In this document: one piece after another, positions 53,361-62,290 of the stretch
Position numbering within the stretch: the first letter of the stretch is position 1
How the letters are laid out: each line of letters opens with the position of its first letter
NCBI RefSeq assembly: GCF_031312535.1
Contig: NZ_CP133594.1
Location: 868,001 to 932,000, forward strand
Length of the DNA: 64,000 nucleotides
Origin: Methanolobus mangrovi
GTDB taxonomy: Archaea > Halobacteriota > Methanosarcinia > Methanosarcinales > Methanosarcinaceae
Reading direction: 5' to 3'
Translations under genes and position numbers: made by a program
The notes under the pieces: model-generated
Seen by the model: the letters and a program-made list of their open reading frames with translations, nothing else
What the model was told of the DNA's origin: nothing
Database searches by the model: none

Positions 53361-54215
53361 TCAAAGTTCTTTCAAAATACGGAAACCAATATAGTTCTTG
53401 TGACTTCCTTCACCTATACTGTCCCGGTCAGCTGAACGACAGTTGGGTTCTGCATTTTCCCAGCTACCACCACGGACTACTCTCCTGTCAACTCCACCAG
53501 TCCATTCACTTCCATCGGCAGGTGCTTTCTGATAGTTGCTGTGGTATTCATCGGTCACCCATTCAGCGACATTGCCATGCACATCGTACAATCCCCATGG
53601 ATTTGCTTCTTTCATACCAACAGGCCATGTTTTATCTTCGGAGACATCATCATACCAGCCATACTCAGCAAGCATTCCTTCTTCATCGCCAAATGAAAAA
53701 GCTGTATCTGTGCCAGCCCTGGCTGCATATTCCCATTCAGCTTCAGTAGGCAGGCGATATGTATCAGTATCTTCAAGTTGATTGAGCTGATCAATGAATT
53801 TATTTGCTTCTACCCAGGAAACTTTCTCTACAGGCAGGTCATCGCCTACAAAATAAGAAGGGTTTTCCCCCATTACTTCTTCCCATTGTTCCTGAGTGAC
53901 TTCATAGATACCCATATAAAAACTATTTCCAATAGTTACCTCGTGCATAGGCCTCTCATCCCTATCGCTATAAGTTTCCTCTTCGGATGCACCCATAATG
54001 AATGTGCCCTCAGGGATCTTCACAAACTGCATCCCAATGGAATTGGTAAATGTACTGTCATCAACCTCTGGTTCCTCAGGAGTGGTATCAATTTCTACAG
54101 GCTCATCATACCCATCATCTGTGCCAGTATCATTGGAATCAGTACAGCCGCTACCAAAAACCGAAATCATAAGGATGATACCCATAATAATTGTCATGTA
54201 TAATCTTTTGTTCAT
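53361..54215 (-). CDS. SUMF1/FGE-domain lipoprotein
   Basis: From the ATG at 54215 (after GAGGATAGG) the product is 284 residues: a lipoprotein signal with cleavage before Cys (SVFGSGC), an acidic linker, and a formylglycine-generating-enzyme-like domain (MQFVKIPEGTFIMGA, YEVTQEQWEEVMG, RLPTEAEWEYAARAG, GNVAEWVTDEY, VVRGGSW, NYIGFRI). The domain often serves as a binding or scaffold fold without FGE activity; only one candidate active-site cysteine (NCRSADR) is visible. The protein is likely tethered outside the membrane. It is monocistronic. Confidence 0.88.
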   Translation of the reverse strand: MNKRLYMTIIMGIILMISVFGSGCTDSNDTGTDDGYDEPVEIDTTPEEPEVDDSTFTNSIGMQFVKIPEGTFIMGASEEETYSDRDERPMHEVTIGNSFYMGIYEVTQEQWEEVMGENPSYFVGDDLPVEKVSWVEANKFIDQLNQLEDTDTYRLPTEAEWEYAARAGTDTAFSFGDEEGMLAEYGWYDDVSEDKTWPVGMKEANPWGLYDVHGNVAEWVTDEYHSNYQKAPADGSEWTGGVDRRVVRGGSWENAEPNCRSADRDSIGEGSHKNYIGFRILKEL

Positions 54216-54521
54216 AGACCTATCCTCGTACATATAAACAACCAGAATAATATTAGATTTTATTCCTGCCCTCAATTTAACCTCTTTGGTTTGTTCCTAC
54301 GTGCAGGGCTATAGAAATCCGGAATTGATTAAAATCGATGAAAGCAAAAATCAATATTTACATGACAAAATTGATAGGCACCTTTTTGTCGGATAAAAGG
54401 CGCCCGATAAATCTCCAACCACCCGTACAAACGAGTTTCCAACTTACACTAATAAGCATTAACATCCATGAAATATAAATTATACGTAGGTTGAGCCATA
54501 GTTATTTCAAAAAAGGAAATT
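54216..54521. other. Intergenic region between SUMF1 lipoprotein and cobY
   Basis: Holds the upstream region of the lipoprotein gene. No RNA gene or frame is supported; the sequence is AT-rich. Confidence 0.4.
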
Positions 54522-55151
54522 TTAGTTTTTAAGCGAGCCTGCATTTCTTTTCAGGAGCATATTCTTACACCTTTCCAGATCCTCACCAGTGTTAACATTG
54601 AGGGCAAGCTCAATATCATCCAGGACAAGGCTGACATAATCCTGTTCATGATCAACATCATTACCGTCCAGTATGTTGATACCTGAAGGAACTATCAGTT
54701 TCCCGTCCCAGTTGAAAACCGTATCAGGTCTGATCCCAAGACTTTTACAAACATGTATGGGAGAAAAAATGGACATTGCCGGTTTCCCGCATTCCTTATA
54801 CTCCCTTATTACCTTTTCAAGAAGTTGCGGTGTCAAAAGAGGCAGGTCTGCCATAAGGATCATAAGCGGGTCTGTGATACAAGCAGCTTTTACTGCATAC
54901 ACCATATCGCCTACATAGTTGCCCCCACCCGTTGGGATGACCATTATCTTGTCATCGTATTCTTCCTGGACAAAGGATGCTGTTTTTGGGGTTGCAGGAG
55001 AAACAGCAACATATATGTCACCTATACTCTCGGTTCTTTGCAGGGTGTCGATTACATAAGAAATAAGAGGTTTTCCCAGAAGTTCAACACAGGGTTTTTC
55101 ACCCATGCCAAGCCTGCTTCCAAATCCTCCGGCCATTATTATAGCGTTCAA
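54522..55151 (-). CDS. cobY: GTP:adenosylcobinamide-phosphate guanylyltransferase
   Basis: The 209-residue protein has the nucleotidyltransferase start AIIMAGGFGSRLGMGEKPCVELLGKPLI and an MILMADLPLL metal site. CobY is the archaeal replacement for CobU and makes AdoCbi-GDP in the late cobamide pathway. It starts at TTG 55151, with GGAGGT 5 nt upstream; TTG overlaps the TGA of cobS, so translation is coupled. As the last gene of the six-gene cob operon its identity is also supported by context. Confidence 0.93.
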   Translation of the reverse strand: MNAIIMAGGFGSRLGMGEKPCVELLGKPLISYVIDTLQRTESIGDIYVAVSPATPKTASFVQEEYDDKIMVIPTGGGNYVGDMVYAVKAACITDPLMILMADLPLLTPQLLEKVIREYKECGKPAMSIFSPIHVCKSLGIRPDTVFNWDGKLIVPSGINILDGNDVDHEQDYVSLVLDDIELALNVNTGEDLERCKNMLLKRNAGSLKN

Positions 55152-55960
55152 ATAATACCTCCATACATTAATATCAGCGTGATACTGATCAATGCAATTA
55201 TCCTTCCAATTTCGTTGGAAGCGCCAATGACATCACCATTGACACCACCAAAATGCCTGTTACTTACGTTAAGCAAGACAAATGTCGCTACTATTGCCGC
55301 TATGAATGCGAAGATACCGGTAATTCCAAGACCAAAGTAAAAAGATGCTCCAAGACAGGCAATACTACCAATTACAAAACCTATAAGGTATTTAGATACT
55401 GTGGTATTGTTAATGAGTATGGAACCCAATCCCTCATGAATAGGTTTTCCGAATGCTGCAATTGTCAACATAGACTGCATTGCACTTACCTCGGAAACGA
55501 ACATTGCAAAGAAGAATATACCTGCTATTTCTGCGGTCGTTGAGTACAGAGCCGTAGCTTCACCATAAAGCGATGTAAGGGAGGCGTAGAAGGCAATGAT
55601 CACAAGAGCAGCATATGCAACCCCACCGATCCCCAGGGACATGTCTTTCAGGGCTTTTAGCTTCTTTTCCACAGAACCATGAGCAGTCAGGCCGTCACCC
55701 AGATCAGCTATTCCATCAAGATGGTTCAGGCCTGTAATATAATAGACAAAAGCAATGATAAGTACTGCACTTATTGAGATTGGCAGGAAGCTTATCAAAA
55801 AGTAGGCTACTGCACCCATCAATAAACCGAGTACAAGACCTACGACCAGATGCAGGTATGTCCTTTTGAAGAATTCATCAAGCCCCTCCATGGTAATTCC
55901 CACAGGTATGGTTGACAGAAACCCGAAACTTGAGCGAAGAGCCAATAAAAAAGCATTCAT
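55148..55960 (-). CDS. cobS: Adenosylcobinamide-GDP ribazoletransferase (cobalamin 5'-phosphate synthase)
   Basis: The 270-residue membrane protein has about seven helices and the CobS motif NHLDGIADLGDGLTAHG near residues 80-95. It joins AdoCbi-GDP and alpha-ribazole (phosphate) to make the cobamide. It overlaps cobZ upstream by 4 bp and cobY downstream by 4 bp. Confidence 0.95.
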   Translation of the reverse strand: MNAFLLALRSSFGFLSTIPVGITMEGLDEFFKRTYLHLVVGLVLGLLMGAVAYFLISFLPISISAVLIIAFVYYITGLNHLDGIADLGDGLTAHGSVEKKLKALKDMSLGIGGVAYAALVIIAFYASLTSLYGEATALYSTTAEIAGIFFFAMFVSEVSAMQSMLTIAAFGKPIHEGLGSILINNTTVSKYLIGFVIGSIACLGASFYFGLGITGIFAFIAAIVATFVLLNVSNRHFGGVNGDVIGASNEIGRIIALISITLILMYGGII

Positions 55961-56568
55961 CCTGCCATCACATCACTTTTGCTGTTGGCATCTTTTTTTG
56001 CGGCCCTCTTTGTTTTACCAGAAGATGATGATGCATCCGCCATGGCCCTTGTGTACATACTAGCAGAGACCCCACCTATAAGCCCACCTATTATATCATC
56101 CATGAAAGGACCAAGCTCTGAGAGGATACCGGGTTTCTGCTTGTCAAAGCGAACGAATTCAAACATCCCTTTGTCACCGCTGATATATTTGGAGATGCTC
56201 ATTCCAAGAACCTCATCGGCGATTATAAAAGTCAGGTCCTTTTCATAAGAGCTTTTGCTGATATTGGGCAGCCTGCCTTCACGGCCCTCTCTTTCAAGTA
56301 ATATCCCGGAATAGACAAGCATACATAGGTTGGGATCGAAAAGAGCAAGATCAAGTTCGTAAAGGAATTTTTCCTCTGCAAGCTCTCTTGTTTCAATACC
56401 AGGGTGTGGAACATATAACTCCAGTGCAGTGTCAACAAGCATCTGGACTGTTATTCCTTCCTCTTCAAGAATATCAATGATATCCCTGGTGATCTCACCT
56501 TCCAGCTCTTTGGACTGGTCTTTTTTCCGGTCTTCTGATTCTATATCCGATAATTTCATTGCCATCAC
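55957..56568 (-). CDS. cobZ: Alpha-ribazole-phosphate phosphatase, CobZ-like (PgpA-related)
   Basis: The 203-residue protein matches the archaeal CobZ type reported in Methanosarcina mazei, which dephosphorylates alpha-ribazole-phosphate (or the cobamide phosphate). Visible features are a helical N-terminus (ELEGEITRDIIDILEEEGI), YVPHPGIETRELAEEKFLYEL, and the conserved FMDDIIGGLIGG segment of the PgpA-like fold. The charged C-terminus (SSGKTKRAAKKDA) is variable. The start among three close ATGs (56568 to 56559) is uncertain. It lies between cbiB and cobS. Confidence 0.82.
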   Translation of the reverse strand: MMAMKLSDIESEDRKKDQSKELEGEITRDIIDILEEEGITVQMLVDTALELYVPHPGIETRELAEEKFLYELDLALFDPNLCMLVYSGILLEREGREGRLPNISKSSYEKDLTFIIADEVLGMSISKYISGDKGMFEFVRFDKQKPGILSELGPFMDDIIGGLIGGVSASMYTRAMADASSSSGKTKRAAKKDANSKSDVMAG

Positions 56569-56607
56569 TTCGGAGAGATTTATTAAATTGAATATGATAT
56601 GTCAAGA

Positions 56608-57582
56608 CTATGTCAAAATTGTAAATAATGATACTATAATTGCAAAGAATGCTGCTATCAGGGTTATCCATGAGGTAAGTTTGATATCTTCGGACACTGG
56701 ATAAATAAAACCCTTACCAAGTACGTAGGTATTGGGTTTTTCGAGTTTTATCCTGAGTGCACCGGCAACTGATGCCATGGGAAAACCTGAGTTTGGAGAT
56801 GGAGTTTTCAAACCATCTGCAAGTCCGCTCTTGAATGCACTTTTATAATCCGGTACTTTGATCCCATGATAGAACAACCTGACTGTCAGAGTCGCTGCGG
56901 AAATGAAGAGAACGGACAAACGTGCAGGTACCCAGTTGAGCACATCATCCAGCTTTGCAGAGAACCAGCCCATATCCCTATGACGCTCATCCGTGTATCC
57001 AACCATTGAATCAAGGGTGCTTGTTGCTTTAAAGACATATGCTGCGATCAGTCCGAAAGGACCAAAACACGCATAGAACAAAAGCGGGGAAAGAATACCA
57101 TCTACATAGTTCTCTGATGTTGTTTCAATGATGGCGGACGAGATATGGCTCTCATCCAGCTTTGATGTATCCCTGCTAACATACATGGATAGTTTTTGCC
57201 TTGCACCGTCAAGCTTCCCTGCATCCAGTTCTTTGCGGACTTCATCTGCAGCGCCATAGAGACAGCGTATTGCAAATGTTGCCTTGAGGAAATAAGCAGC
57301 AACAAGGTAGCGTAACGGAGAAGGAATGTTTTCTATCCCCATGAAAAGCATTACAAGATATGCTATAAGACTGCCAAACAGTATAGTGGTCAGACCCATG
57401 AATATGCCATAGAGCTTCCTGTGGGTCTTTGGGACATGCTTCTTGAAAAAGGATATCAACCTGCCCATCCATACAACCGGATGGATAGCAGCAGGAGGCT
57501 CACAAAATACCATATCCAGGGCATAGGCTAACAGAAGTACTATCACAAGCTCACTTGGATCAGCCTGTACCGGTGGTATCAT
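56608..57582 (-). CDS. cbiB: Adenosylcobinamide-phosphate synthase (CbiB/CobD-type)
   Basis: The 324-residue polytopic membrane protein carries the family motifs PPAAIHPVVWMGR, SRDTSKLDESHISSAIIETTSENYVDGILSPLLFY, ATSTLDSMVGYTDERHRDMGWFSAKLDDVLNWVPARL and SPNSGFPMASVAGALRIKLEKPN. It attaches aminopropanol phosphate (from the CobD product) to adenosylcobyric acid. The ATG overlaps the cobD stop as ATGA, a sign of translational coupling. Confidence 0.95.
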   Translation of the reverse strand: MIPPVQADPSELVIVLLLAYALDMVFCEPPAAIHPVVWMGRLISFFKKHVPKTHRKLYGIFMGLTTILFGSLIAYLVMLFMGIENIPSPLRYLVAAYFLKATFAIRCLYGAADEVRKELDAGKLDGARQKLSMYVSRDTSKLDESHISSAIIETTSENYVDGILSPLLFYACFGPFGLIAAYVFKATSTLDSMVGYTDERHRDMGWFSAKLDDVLNWVPARLSVLFISAATLTVRLFYHGIKVPDYKSAFKSGLADGLKTPSPNSGFPMASVAGALRIKLEKPNTYVLGKGFIYPVSEDIKLTSWITLIAAFFAIIVSLFTILT

Positions 57583-59081
57583 AAATTAGTCTCCATTACG
57601 CTCTTCCATGCCTTCTCAATACTTTCTTTATTGAGTCCATCCACGGTGAACACAGATAATAAGTCATCAACGATTTTTTCCTTGTGAACTATATTGCATT
57701 TAAGACAGCTCCATACCTGACCACCGCTGGAACTCTCGATCCAGCTACCTCCGGTGCGGGTGTCCTCACATGGATAGAACGGACAGAAGCAGAAGGTACA
57801 ATCCTGTTCTTCAAAATGACAGGGGTAATAGTCACAGTCTGTATTGCTACCTTTGCGCCCGCATTCTGCAGCTGCTTTAATATTTTCTCCTAGCTGCATC
57901 TCTGCCTGTTCCCGACCCCATTCATAGATAACCTGACGAATGGTAGATGCGATAAGTTCGTTCTCTTCCCTTTTGCGTATGGCTATTCGAATGTAATTTG
58001 GACCTATGTTCTGGAAAGAGTTACAATCACGTATCAATACACCATGGGAAGCCATGCGTTCTGCAAGCTCAGAAGAAGTAAGGGATAGTTCGGAGATATC
58101 CACAAAAATGTAGTTCACACTGCTTTCGATAGGCTTGAAGCCCCTGCGTGAGAGTTTCTCCATCAGGAAATCATGTTCTTTTCTTATGAAAGCCCTGGAA
58201 TCTTTCAGATATTTGCTGTTTACTCCCCCTTCCATATTCAGAAGAGCAGTTGCTACTGTATCTGCAATACATCCCATATTCCATGACAGCCTTGCACTGT
58301 TAAGTACACAGGCAAACTTCTTTGATGCTATACCAAAACCCATCCTGATACCGGGGATAGCAAAGGCCTTTGTGAGAGAGCGCTGGATGAAAAGATAGTC
58401 ATTTTCCTCAACAAGATATGCAACACTTTGTTCAGGATCTGCAAGTTCTATGAATGCTTCATCTACAAAGAGAATGGTCTTGTGGGCTGCACAGATCTTT
58501 GCAAGCTCTTCGATCTGCTCCTTTAAGAGTAATTTTCCTGTAGGATTATTGGGATTGCATACGAAGATGATTTTAGCTTCGTCAAGCAGTTTATCGTCAA
58601 GATCGAATATGTTTTCCTGATCGACGTATTTTACCTGTGCCCCCATAACCTTGCACTGCATCTCATATTCACTGAATGTCGGTGTGGGAATAAGTACAAC
58701 ATCCCCTTCACTGATGGCGCACTCAGCAACAAGCCTTATGATCTCAGTTGACCCGTTTCCCGGGATTATGTTTTCGTATGTTATGCCCATACCAACAAAA
58801 TCAGCTGCAGCTGTCCTGTATTCCATATAACGGTTATCAGGATACTGTTCTAGTTTTTCAAGTCCGGTTTTAAGAAGGTCCTCAAGATCAAGTTCCGAAT
58901 CAGGTTGCTCAAATGGTGTTCCAAACGGATTCAAGCTTGCACTTGCATCCAGTATTTCCGATTCAGGTATCCCGTATCTCTGGGAACTTTTTCGTATCAG
59001 TCCGCCATGTGCACATGGCTCAAGGCTTAGAAGATAATTCTTTACCGGGAGAGATGATCTTTGTCCTGTCAAAATAATCAA
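57579..59081 (-). CDS. cobD: Threonine-phosphate decarboxylase with C-terminal Cys-rich kinase-type domain
   Basis: 500 residues. Residues 20-390 are an aminotransferase-fold decarboxylase with NPNNPTG, DEAF and the PLP lysine in RSLTKAF (Lys238), making aminopropanol phosphate from threonine phosphate. The last 100 residues are Cys-rich (CDYYPC, CTFCFCPFYPC, CLKC). In M. mazei MM2060 a matching domain was reported to be a threonine kinase, so the protein probably makes its own threonine phosphate. The start (TTG at 59081) is uncertain, with no good ribosome site. It overlaps cbiB and follows a paralogue. Confidence 0.92.
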   Translation of the reverse strand: MIILTGQRSSLPVKNYLLSLEPCAHGGLIRKSSQRYGIPESEILDASASLNPFGTPFEQPDSELDLEDLLKTGLEKLEQYPDNRYMEYRTAAADFVGMGITYENIIPGNGSTEIIRLVAECAISEGDVVLIPTPTFSEYEMQCKVMGAQVKYVDQENIFDLDDKLLDEAKIIFVCNPNNPTGKLLLKEQIEELAKICAAHKTILFVDEAFIELADPEQSVAYLVEENDYLFIQRSLTKAFAIPGIRMGFGIASKKFACVLNSARLSWNMGCIADTVATALLNMEGGVNSKYLKDSRAFIRKEHDFLMEKLSRRGFKPIESSVNYIFVDISELSLTSSELAERMASHGVLIRDCNSFQNIGPNYIRIAIRKREENELIASTIRQVIYEWGREQAEMQLGENIKAAAECGRKGSNTDCDYYPCHFEEQDCTFCFCPFYPCEDTRTGGSWIESSSGGQVWSCLKCNIVHKEKIVDDLLSVFTVDGLNKESIEKAWKSVMETNL

Positions 59082-59135
59082 AGCATGTAGTAAATAGGAA
59101 ATATATTAACCTGTTTAGCTGATCTTCAAGAAAGA

Positions 59136-60650
59136 TCAAAGCAGAGGCTCAATCACTTCCTTCCATGCCCTCCTTATGTTCTCATCAGTGTCTCCGTCAG
59201 CCATCAGTGCATCAAGCACCATTCTGGCGACCTTTGATCTATGCAATAGAGTACAATGTTCACAACTCCATACCTGTCCACCTGTGGAGCTCTCTATTAA
59301 TTTACCACCTGTATTTTCGTTCTGGCATGGATAAAAAGGACAGAAGCAAAATGTACAGTCCTGACCTGTGAAATGGCATGGATAATATTCGCAGGAGCCA
59401 CGGCCAGCAGCAGTCGCACCACCATGTTCAATGGTTTCCTCCAGTTTTTCCCGGGCATCTTCCCTGCTAAGTTCAGCAAATACATCATCAAGAGTTCGTA
59501 TCAGTTTCTCAAATTCAACCCTGGGTCGTACAGATATCCTGACATATCTTTTCGAACCATCAAAAAAATCACCGCATTCACGAATCATTATTCCATATGA
59601 TGCCAGTCCTTCAGTGAGCCTTACAGAATCCACAAAGAGATCCTTGACATCCACAAGCAGATAACTGGCACTGCTTTCGATGGGATCGAAACCGTAGATG
59701 CCTGAAAGACGTTTGATGATGTAATCCCTTTCTTTTTTAATGAAAGCTCTGGACTCGGAGAGATACTTGCAACCGGAACCACCTTCCAGATTAAGGAAAG
59801 AAATTCCAATAGCTTCTTCAACCACCCCGATATTCCATGAAAGTCTGGCAGAATTCAATACTTCTGCAAGGGAAAGGGAGGCAATGCCATAAGCCAGTCT
59901 CATGCCAGGCATCCCAATAATGTTTGAGACAGACCGTATTACAAAAAGAGAATCATTTTCCAGCGCCACATCCGCAATACTCATTGCAGGGTCAGCAAGC
60001 TCGATAGATGATTCATCGACTATGAGTAAAGTATTATGTGCAGCGCATTTTTCTGCGAATTCAACCAGTGATTCCCTGGATGTAAGCTCCCCGGTGGGAT
60101 CGTTAGGGTTCTCAATAATTACGATCTTTGCCCGATCCAATGTCATCCGGGGAAGATTTAGTAATTCCTTTGAAGTGAACGAATTTACACGAGCACCGAA
60201 GATCTCAGCTACGTGCCGATACTGCCCGGAAGAAGGAGAAGGAACTATTATCATATCTCCTTCATTTATAACTGACCCAATAATCAGGCGTAATAACTCG
60301 CATGAACCATTACCGGGAACTATATTTTCAAAGTTGATGCCATGACCCAGAAAACTGGCGGCAGCTGTTCTTAATTCAAGGTACCGATTATCAGGATACT
60401 GATCTGATCGGGCAATAGAATCAAAGATTATCTGCTCTTTGTCAAGTTCACTTTCCTTAAAATCAAACGGTGTGCCCAGAGGATTTGCATTTGAGCTGAA
60501 ATCAAGCATATCTGTTTCAGACATATTATATTTTTCAGCTGCCTCATAAACCCTCCCGCCATGCTTCCTTGCTTGCAATGCAAGCAAATAATGCTTCAAA
60601 TGAAGTGGGAAATTTTTTCGGTACACACTTATCAACAGGTGGTTACGCAC
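59136..60650 (-). CDS. CobD paralogue with degenerate PLP site and intact Cys-rich domain
   Basis: The 504-residue protein has the same two-part layout as the cobD product next to it. The Cys-rich domain is complete (CEYYPC, CTFCFCPFYPC, CEHC). In the aminotransferase-like part the PLP lysine is replaced: RSVSNII has Asn243 (codon AAC at 59922-59924) where cobD has Lys. NPNNPTG has become NPNDPTG, while the DES aspartate and the terminal Arg motif are kept. It is therefore unlikely to decarboxylate. It may be a dedicated threonine kinase, a regulatory partner or a new activity. The GTG start at 60650 is uncertain. It is the first gene of the cobamide operon. Confidence 0.87.
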   Translation of the reverse strand: MRNHLLISVYRKNFPLHLKHYLLALQARKHGGRVYEAAEKYNMSETDMLDFSSNANPLGTPFDFKESELDKEQIIFDSIARSDQYPDNRYLELRTAAASFLGHGINFENIVPGNGSCELLRLIIGSVINEGDMIIVPSPSSGQYRHVAEIFGARVNSFTSKELLNLPRMTLDRAKIVIIENPNDPTGELTSRESLVEFAEKCAAHNTLLIVDESSIELADPAMSIADVALENDSLFVIRSVSNIIGMPGMRLAYGIASLSLAEVLNSARLSWNIGVVEEAIGISFLNLEGGSGCKYLSESRAFIKKERDYIIKRLSGIYGFDPIESSASYLLVDVKDLFVDSVRLTEGLASYGIMIRECGDFFDGSKRYVRISVRPRVEFEKLIRTLDDVFAELSREDAREKLEETIEHGGATAAGRGSCEYYPCHFTGQDCTFCFCPFYPCQNENTGGKLIESSTGGQVWSCEHCTLLHRSKVARMVLDALMADGDTDENIRRAWKEVIEPLL

Positions 60651-60807
60651 AGGAGATATATTAAACTATTCAAGTTAAGTTGTGCAAATATCCACAATTT
60701 AAACACTAAAAAGGTAAAAACATAAATATACGGCAATATAAATCTATCAAAAGTTCTATAACGATGTATCGTACAACATTATATCAGGGCATATTGGAGA
60801 TTTCCTC

Positions 60808-61590
60808 ATGGCAGATGAAATTGATTATAAAATAATTGGCGACGACATGCAGCTTGTAGAGATTGAACTTGACACTAATGAGGCAGTAAGAGCAGAAGCT
60901 GGCGCAATGATGTATATGGGACCAGGCATCAAAATGGAAACATCTACAGGTGGCGGTTTACTCAAAGGCCTTAAACGTGCAGTAACAGGAGAGAGTTTCT
61001 TTATTACAAGTTTTATTCATGAGGGATCAGGAAAAGGGTATGTTGCATTTGGAGCTCCATACCCCGGAAAGATAATTCCACTTGACCTTGGAAAACTGGG
61101 AGGCAGCTTCCTGTGTCAGAAAGATTCATTTCTCTGTGCAGCAAATGGTATAGATATTGAGGTTGCACTTACCAAAAAGGTAGGAGCAGGACTGTTTGGA
61201 GGGGAAGGTTTTATTCTCCAGAGACTCAAAGGTGACGGACTTGCTTTTGTACATGCCGGTGGAACCATTATTGAAAAAGACCTTGCTGCCGGAGAGACCA
61301 TCAGAGTTGATACCGGATGCATAACCGCCTTTGCAGAAAGTGTAACATACAATATACAGCTGGCAAGCGGATTCAAAAATGCACTGTTCGGTGGGGAAGG
61401 ACTTGTACTGGCAAGTCTTACCGGCCCCGGAAAGATCTATCTTCAAAGTCTTCCTTTCTCACGTCTTGCAGACAGGATCGTTGCAGCTTCAAGGTACCAG
61501 GGCGGTAGCAGAAGAGACGAATCAACCGGAATAGCCGGAATTGGCAGCGGTGCACTTGGGGCTATTCTTGGAGGGGACCGTTCATTCTGA
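60808..61590 (+). CDS. TIGR00266/AIM24-family protein
   Basis: The 260-residue all-beta protein has MQLVEIELDTNEAVRAEAGAMMYM, GGGLLKGLKRAVTGESFFITSF, GGSFLCQKDSFLCAANGIDI, AGLFGGEGFILQRLKGDG and GEGLVLASLTGPGKIYLQSLPFSRLADRI, all typical of the family. No enzymatic role is established; eukaryotic AIM24 affects mitochondrial organisation. GGAG lies about 8 nt before the ATG. It is divergent from the cobamide operon. The metallophosphoesterase gene follows 40 bp later and may be co-transcribed. Confidence 0.92.
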   Translation: MADEIDYKIIGDDMQLVEIELDTNEAVRAEAGAMMYMGPGIKMETSTGGGLLKGLKRAVTGESFFITSFIHEGSGKGYVAFGAPYPGKIIPLDLGKLGGSFLCQKDSFLCAANGIDIEVALTKKVGAGLFGGEGFILQRLKGDGLAFVHAGGTIIEKDLAAGETIRVDTGCITAFAESVTYNIQLASGFKNALFGGEGLVLASLTGPGKIYLQSLPFSRLADRIVAASRYQGGSRRDESTGIAGIGSGALGAILGGDRSF

Positions 61591-61630
61591 GAACAGGCGT
61601 TGCTGTCCGACATATGAGGAGACACTAAAA

Positions 61631-62290
61631 ATGAGACTGTTTGCTATTGCAGATCCGCATGGCAATTATTCCAAAATAGAAGAGTTACTTGAACAGTCCG
61701 GAGACATTGATGTAATTTTGATTGCCGGAGACATCACCAATTTCGGACCTGATGAAAAGGCACTGGAACTCATTGATATGTTCAAGCCACCAATACTTGC
61801 AGTTCCGGGAAACTGCGATCATGAATCTATATTAGAAGTAATAGACAATTCAAGAGCCACAAATCTTCATAATGGATCTATTACAATAGACGGAGTTCAG
61901 TTTGTAGGTATGGGCGGGTCCAATCCCACACCATTCTGCACTCCTTTTGAGATAGAGGAATCTGATTTTGAGACAAATCTCAATAGCCTGATGAATGAAA
62001 CTGGAAATACAGAAGAGCCCGTTGTCATCCTCACACATGTACCTCCCTACGGAATTCTTGACGAGGTGGGAGGCATGCACGTAGGGTGCAAAGCCCTAAG
62101 CGTATTTCTTGATAAAGCTGACATTATGGTCTGCGGACATATCCATGAAGCAAGAGGTATTCGAAACTCCGGAAAAACCATAATAGTCAATCCCGGAATG
62201 GCTGCATTGGGTTTTGCAGCACTTATAGATATTAATAGAGAGAATCATGAATATGATATAAGTATACAGCTACTAGAAGCTGGCAGATAA
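61631..62290 (+). CDS. Metallophosphoesterase, YfcE/MJ0936-like
   Basis: From the ATG at 61631 (after GAGGAGA) the 219-residue enzyme has the calcineurin-like motifs in order: ADPHGN (DxH), GDIT (GD), GNCDHE (GNCD), THVPPYG (H), and CGHIHEA (GHxH), giving a complete dimetal site. It should hydrolyse phosphodiesters, but the substrate is unknown. It follows the TIGR00266 gene; a longer frame that overlaps that gene lacks a ribosome site. Confidence 0.93.
   Translation: MRLFAIADPHGNYSKIEELLEQSGDIDVILIAGDITNFGPDEKALELIDMFKPPILAVPGNCDHESILEVIDNSRATNLHNGSITIDGVQFVGMGGSNPTPFCTPFEIEESDFETNLNSLMNETGNTEEPVVILTHVPPYGILDEVGGMHVGCKALSVFLDKADIMVCGHIHEARGIRNSGKTIIVNPGMAALGFAALIDINRENHEYDISIQLLEAGR

Follow-up and report, generated by a model that had tools for sequence, protein, structure and literature searches.

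Directly upstream of a normal cobD gene, Methanolobus mangrovi encodes a CobD paralogue in which the lysine that forms the Schiff base with pyridoxal phosphate (PLP) is replaced by asparagine. Sequence comparison indicates that this lysine was lost independently at least twice in Methanosarcinaceae, in each case in a lineage that carries CobD in duplicate, and that the paralogues are under purifying selection. PLP-dependent decarboxylation by the paralogue itself is very unlikely, because residues of the PLP pocket were lost from a conserved and selected copy that co-occurs with a lysine-bearing CobD in the same genome.

The paralogue and its gene cluster

Within the window (the whole stretch of 64,000 nucleotides that was analysed), the paralogue is the first gene of a cobamide cluster on the minus strand. 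The order is the paralogue (59136..60650; 504 aa with the GTG start as given, open throughout), cobD (57579..59081; 500 aa), cbiB (56608..57582; PF03186), a PgpA-family gene (55957..56568), cobS (55148..55960; PF02654) and a gene for a MobA-like NTP transferase (54522..55151). By their context, the PgpA-family protein is probably the alpha-ribazole phosphatase CobZ and the MobA-like gene is probably cobY. The stop of the paralogue and the start of cobD are separated by 54 bp. The host genome, a single contig of 2.62 Mb, contains only these two genes for CobD with a Cys-rich domain.

Two similar A/T-rich elements, TTTAATATATCTCCT and GTTAATATATTTCCT, lie 5′ of the paralogue (60650-60740) and of cobD (59082-59135), respectively. 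The element ahead of the paralogue is kept in other Methanolobus and is very near the GTG. Therefore, the true start of the paralogue may lie some codons further on, and each gene may have a promoter of its own. An Rfam search of 54000-62000 revealed no RNA element at gathering scores, and a scan with sigma-70 and terminator models, which are ill-suited to archaea, gave hits at chance level only.

Fold and domain composition

The paralogue shares 46% identity with the neighbouring CobD. Both proteins contain the fold-type I domain Aminotran_1_2 (PF00155; 59496..60515, minus strand, in the paralogue) and, as in MM2060-type proteins, a C-terminal Cys-rich small domain (PF04071; 59199..59396, minus strand). 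The AlphaFold model of the paralogue (pLDDT 82.7) matched the CobD structure 1lc8 in Foldseek with a TM score of 0.87 on the target, which is consistent with a CobD/HisC-like fold-type I fold. The lysine-less protein of Methanohalophilus was also predicted to have a confident fold (pLDDT 81.6). The neighbouring cobD product scored above the curated cut-off (290.55) of the CobD equivalog TIGR01140 with 294.3, whereas the paralogue scored below it with 220.4. The other lysine-less proteins scored were below the cut-off as well: 223.9 for a Methanolobus orthologue, 198.9 for Methanomethylovorans and 176.4 for Methanohalophilus.

The initial annotation had noted the motif RSVSNII in the paralogue in place of RSLTKAF in the adjacent cobD, and both motifs were confirmed. 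Asn243 (AAC codon at 59922..59924, minus strand) aligns with the Schiff-base Lys216 of Salmonella enterica CobD; the equivalent residue of the normal cobD is Lys238 (58368-58370, minus strand). A second difference, NPNDPTG instead of NPNNPTG, is present as well (GAT codon of Asp184 at 60099..60101, minus strand; Asn157 in S. enterica). However, this change is not general: Asp occurs in 8 of the 23 representative Methanolobus paralogues, and it was therefore regarded as a secondary feature and rejected as the defining change.

Distribution of lysine-less copies

We scanned 112 genomes of the family for CobD with the Cys-rich domain. At least two matches were found in all genomes of Methanolobus (27/27), Methanomethylovorans (6/6) and Methanohalophilus (8/8). 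Methanococcoides genomes also have two or more, with Lys present in both copies, and Methanosarcina has one match as a rule. The asparagine variant, which the initial annotation had proposed to look for across the family, recurs: the second copy lacks Lys in all 27 Methanolobus genomes, with Asn in 24 and Arg, Asp or Gly in one each. Sequencing error as the source of the Asn was consequently rejected. The Lys column is occupied by His in the Methanomethylovorans orthologues and by Thr, Asp, Tyr or Asn in the lysine-less copy of Methanohalophilus. For each lysine-less gene examined within Methanosarcinaceae, a lysine-bearing CobD was encoded in the same genome. The Methanohalophilus motif RSLKDTF has a Lys one residue earlier; a substitute role for it was rejected, since it is missing from two copies (L088 and L171) and the pocket is otherwise lost.

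Two unusual Methanolobus copies were observed. In one metagenome-assembled genome (G050; L043, upstream of 6043), in-frame stops occur near the N-terminus of the paralogue, possibly due to a decaying copy, an assembly error or a later start codon. Another genome (G063) has a third, strongly diverged CobD-like protein without the Lys (L176:3660-5165; RSISNTF), in which the Cys-rich domain is intact and the YPDN and GNGS motifs are gone. Its gene is flanked by rnhB-like and purQ/purS-like genes, apart from the cobamide operon.

Two origins of the lysine loss

In a tree of 91 proteins computed after removal of the motif columns, the lysine-less copies of Methanolobus and Methanomethylovorans formed one clade (SH-aLRT 100), and those of Methanohalophilus were sister to the lysine-bearing second copies of Methanococcoides (SH-aLRT 99). 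The minimum number of changes on this tree is two. A single origin for all lysine-less copies was rejected, as the constraint costs 41 log units (AU test: p = 0.0104), with the caveat of long branches. Synteny agrees with the tree, because a different copy was affected in each case. Of the tandem copies in Methanolobus and Methanomethylovorans, the upstream one lacks Lys and the cbiB-adjacent one bears it. In Methanohalophilus it is the cbiB-adjacent copy that lacks Lys, and the lysine-bearing copy is located elsewhere, divergent from pylSBCD.

The arrangement of a lysine-bearing cobD divergent from pylSBCD was seen in Methanococcoides (L056:49-9809) and Methanohalophilus (L064, L065, L068, L134 and L135). 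In Methanococcoides, mtbA lies beyond pylSBCD, and an extra cobY-like gene lies between the two cobD copies.

Selection and residues of the PLP pocket

The dN/dS ratio was 0.12-0.13 in the lysine-less clade of Methanolobus and Methanomethylovorans and 0.21, from few pairs, in the lysine-less copies of Methanohalophilus. Lysine-bearing copies showed 0.06-0.09, and cobD showed about 0.06, half the value of the paralogue.

We used as a reference the 90 positions that are invariant among 58 lysine-bearing CobDs, comprising 25 in the Cys-rich domain and 65 in the PLP domain. All 25 positions of the Cys-rich domain were intact in all three lysine-less groups, in agreement with the initial annotation, which had described this domain of the paralogue as complete. 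Of the 65 invariant positions in the PLP domain, 47 were retained in Methanolobus, 46 in Methanomethylovorans and 26 in Methanohalophilus. The lost positions cluster around PLP: Lys216, the Phe expected to stack on PLP, Ala187, Phe188, Thr215, Gly226 and Ala339 (S. enterica numbering). The Phe site, which we take to be where HisC enzymes stack an aromatic residue on PLP, is Phe in 58 of 58 lysine-bearing CobDs and never Phe in lysine-less representatives (Ser, Pro, Ala, Asn or Thr); it is Ser141 in the M. mangrovi paralogue (60228..60230, minus strand). Ala187 is replaced by Ser in 33 of 33 lysine-less representatives from both origins, so that the VDEA motif reads VDES (Ser214 in the paralogue; 60009..60011, minus strand).

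Several other pocket residues are retained in Methanolobus, namely His8, Ser30, Tyr56, Asp185, Ser213, Arg224, Arg323 and Arg337, which presumably contact the substrate or the phosphate and ring nitrogen of the cofactor as in CobD structures. The lysine-less copies of Methanohalophilus have also lost His8, Tyr56, Arg224 and the GNGS loop. Four residues (S214, D361, F380 and S395) are newly fixed in the Methanolobus paralogues, each in 23 of 23 representatives. Because several replacements were fixed, the pocket seems to have been remodelled, which is more than decay. The proposal of the initial annotation that decarboxylation had been lost is thus strongly supported by the disappearance of further PLP-pocket residues together with the Lys and by at least two such losses.

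Possible roles of the paralogue

We tentatively favour the possibility that the paralogue works without PLP and serves CobD as a partner or regulatory subunit that carries a Cys-rich metal domain, by analogy with LCB1. This reading is favoured by the co-occurrence with a lysine-bearing CobD, the small loss in the latter, the Cys-rich domain common to all copies and a distant relative (L177, described below). The feature shared by all lysine-less copies is a perfect Cys-rich domain, and the threonine-phosphate pocket is partly lost in Methanohalophilus. The paralogue would then be a CobD pseudoenzyme, dead in PLP chemistry and retained as the partner of the intact CobD encoded alongside. Since fold-type I enzymes are dimeric with shared active sites, it would associate as a non-catalytic subunit with CobD alone or with CobD plus its neighbours in the pathway; conservation of YPDN and other dimer motifs would be no less expected if the paralogue formed a homodimer. 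In such a complex the paralogue would enhance or gate the activity of CobD and would supply a second Cys-rich centre, probably Fe-S. Such an arrangement would resemble that of the lysine-less LCB1 subunit in serine palmitoyltransferase or that of prozyme-type dead paralogues.

CobD with a Cys-rich domain is among the few enzymes reported to join kinase and PLP-dependent decarboxylase activities. MM2060 of M. mazei is reportedly such a bifunctional L-threonine kinase and decarboxylase, and the initial annotation had accordingly offered a kinase-only copy as one option and a regulatory or new role as another. In the former case, the paralogue would retain the L-threonine kinase, give up decarboxylation and feed threonine phosphate to the intact CobD. 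The modelled threonine-phosphate-binding residues H8, R323 and R337 are intact in 23 of 23 Methanolobus representatives. PduX was rejected as an alternative threonine kinase, as the four GHMP proteins found in the genome were all assigned to other enzymes: mevalonate kinase, shikimate kinase, pantoate kinase (below its cut-off) and beta-RFAP synthase (the search covered the GHMP family; threonine kinases such as BluE belong to other families). However, among sites conserved in single-copy CobDs, 19 were altered in the lysine-less copies alone and four in the lysine-bearing partner alone, and no reciprocal subfunctionalisation of the partner was seen. If kinase and decarboxylase had been cleanly divided between the copies, both would be expected to show losses, and the lysine-bearing CobD is nearly unchanged relative to single-copy CobDs, although the kinase residues could be few. 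In addition, the independently arisen Methanohalophilus copies have lost H8, Y56, R224 and GNGS, and neither cbiB nor cobS was detected in the genome of the distant relative. These points are not decisive. A kinase-only function is ranked second, as a rather unlikely reading, and a regulatory or new role fits better.

Less probable still is a role in sensing or trafficking a metabolite of the cobamide pathway, in which the vacated PLP pocket would bind a different ligand and act together with the Cys-rich centre. The pocket was remodelled and not randomised, with S214 present in both origins and D361 and F380 invariant in Methanolobus; the Cys-rich domain also occurs fused to CbiZ or alone in other archaea, and the distant relative adjoins genes for a B12-dependent ribonucleotide reductase and a BtuF-like protein. 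However, a partner of CobD would account just as well for the location beside cobD and for the co-occurrence with it.

We consider it highly improbable that the paralogue remains a PLP or PMP enzyme minus the Schiff-base Lys, as in the Lys-to-His PMP-dependent sugar dehydratases. His is found at the Lys site in Methanomethylovorans, and Asp185, Ser213 and Arg224 (the last in Methanolobus) are retained. However, the site is variable (Asn, Asp, Arg, Gly, His, Tyr or Thr), and the aromatic expected to stack on PLP is gone from every lysine-less representative. The ColD-type combination of a conserved His and an intact cofactor pocket is thus absent, with His in Methanomethylovorans only. A functionless, decaying duplicate has equally little to recommend it: the paralogue evolves faster than cobD and in-frame stops occur in one Methanolobus genome (G050), but dN/dS is well under 1, the copy is present in 27 of 27 Methanolobus genomes, the Cys-rich domain is invariant and new residues are fixed.

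Distant relatives and the Cys-rich domain

A more distant lysine-less fusion of CobD and the Cys-rich domain (L177:2767-4128) was found in genome G221 beside a B12-dependent ribonucleotide reductase gene and a BtuF-like gene. Since neither cbiB nor cobS was detected in G221, this protein cannot serve CobD there in the cobamide pathway, which counts against the partner reading, as do the in-frame stops in G050. At the syntenic place in a sister species (G276), a 155-aa ORF encodes the Cys-rich domain alone (L190:1495-1959). In other archaea of the phylum the domain is fused to the adenosylcobinamide amidohydrolase CbiZ (L195:1468-2397 and L200:781-1749), and in yet others it is free-standing. 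The Cys-rich domain is apparently a mobile cobamide-associated domain. A broader, somewhat doubtful generalisation would be that methylotrophic methanogens repeatedly made one CobD copy a PLP-free pseudoenzyme whose conserved Cys-rich centre is a general cobamide module that controls nucleotide-loop flux or cobamide use through a function in redox chemistry, sensing or delivery.

Our search of the open-access literature found no report of a lysine-less CobD paralogue and nothing on threonine-phosphate decarboxylase of Methanolobus. The repeatedly evolved lysine-less copy represents a natural separation-of-function variant, which can reveal the dependence of the kinase on PLP, if any, the function of the Cys-rich centre and any regulation of CobD by a dead partner. 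The label 'threonine-phosphate decarboxylase' is probably wrong for the lysine-less gene in Methanolobus, Methanomethylovorans and Methanohalophilus, and the active CobD is not always the gene within the cbiB operon.

Comparison with known systems

The paralogue resembles S. enterica CobD (1LC5-1LC8) in its predicted fold-type I structure (to the extent of the TM score given above), its place in a cobamide operon and, in Methanolobus, the presence of H8, R323 and R337. It differs from CobD in lacking the Schiff-base Lys and the PLP-stacking aromatic and in scoring below the TIGR01140 cut-off. The Salmonella enzyme, in turn, lacks the C-terminal Cys-rich domain that the paralogue has. MM2060, the CobD of M. 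mazei, has an identical two-domain architecture, and CobD of Methanosarcina represents the single-copy counterpart. However, RSLTK is retained in MM2060-type proteins and absent from the paralogue.

Dead paralogues that work with a live partner are known from other families. In serine palmitoyltransferase, the LCB1 subunit, a paralogue of a fold-type I PLP enzyme, is without the PLP Lys and pairs with its Lys-bearing homologue LCB2 (PMC3794620). The CobD paralogue shares with it the loss of the PLP Lys and has a Lys-bearing homologue in its own genome. LCB1 belongs, however, to another family with another reaction, and the LCB1/LCB2 complex has been demonstrated, whereas a pairing with CobD is a proposal here. 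Trypanosomatid deoxyhypusine synthase is activated 3000-fold by a dead paralogue (PMC3663545), and the plant pseudoenzyme TSB-like is likewise described as activating TSA (PMC12727527). Both cases share with the paralogue a dead copy conserved beside a live copy or partner (PMC3663545; PMC12727527), although their folds or reactions are unrelated to CobD. By analogy, LCB1, deoxyhypusine synthase and TSB-like could illustrate a possible mode of working for the paralogue, not membership in their families.
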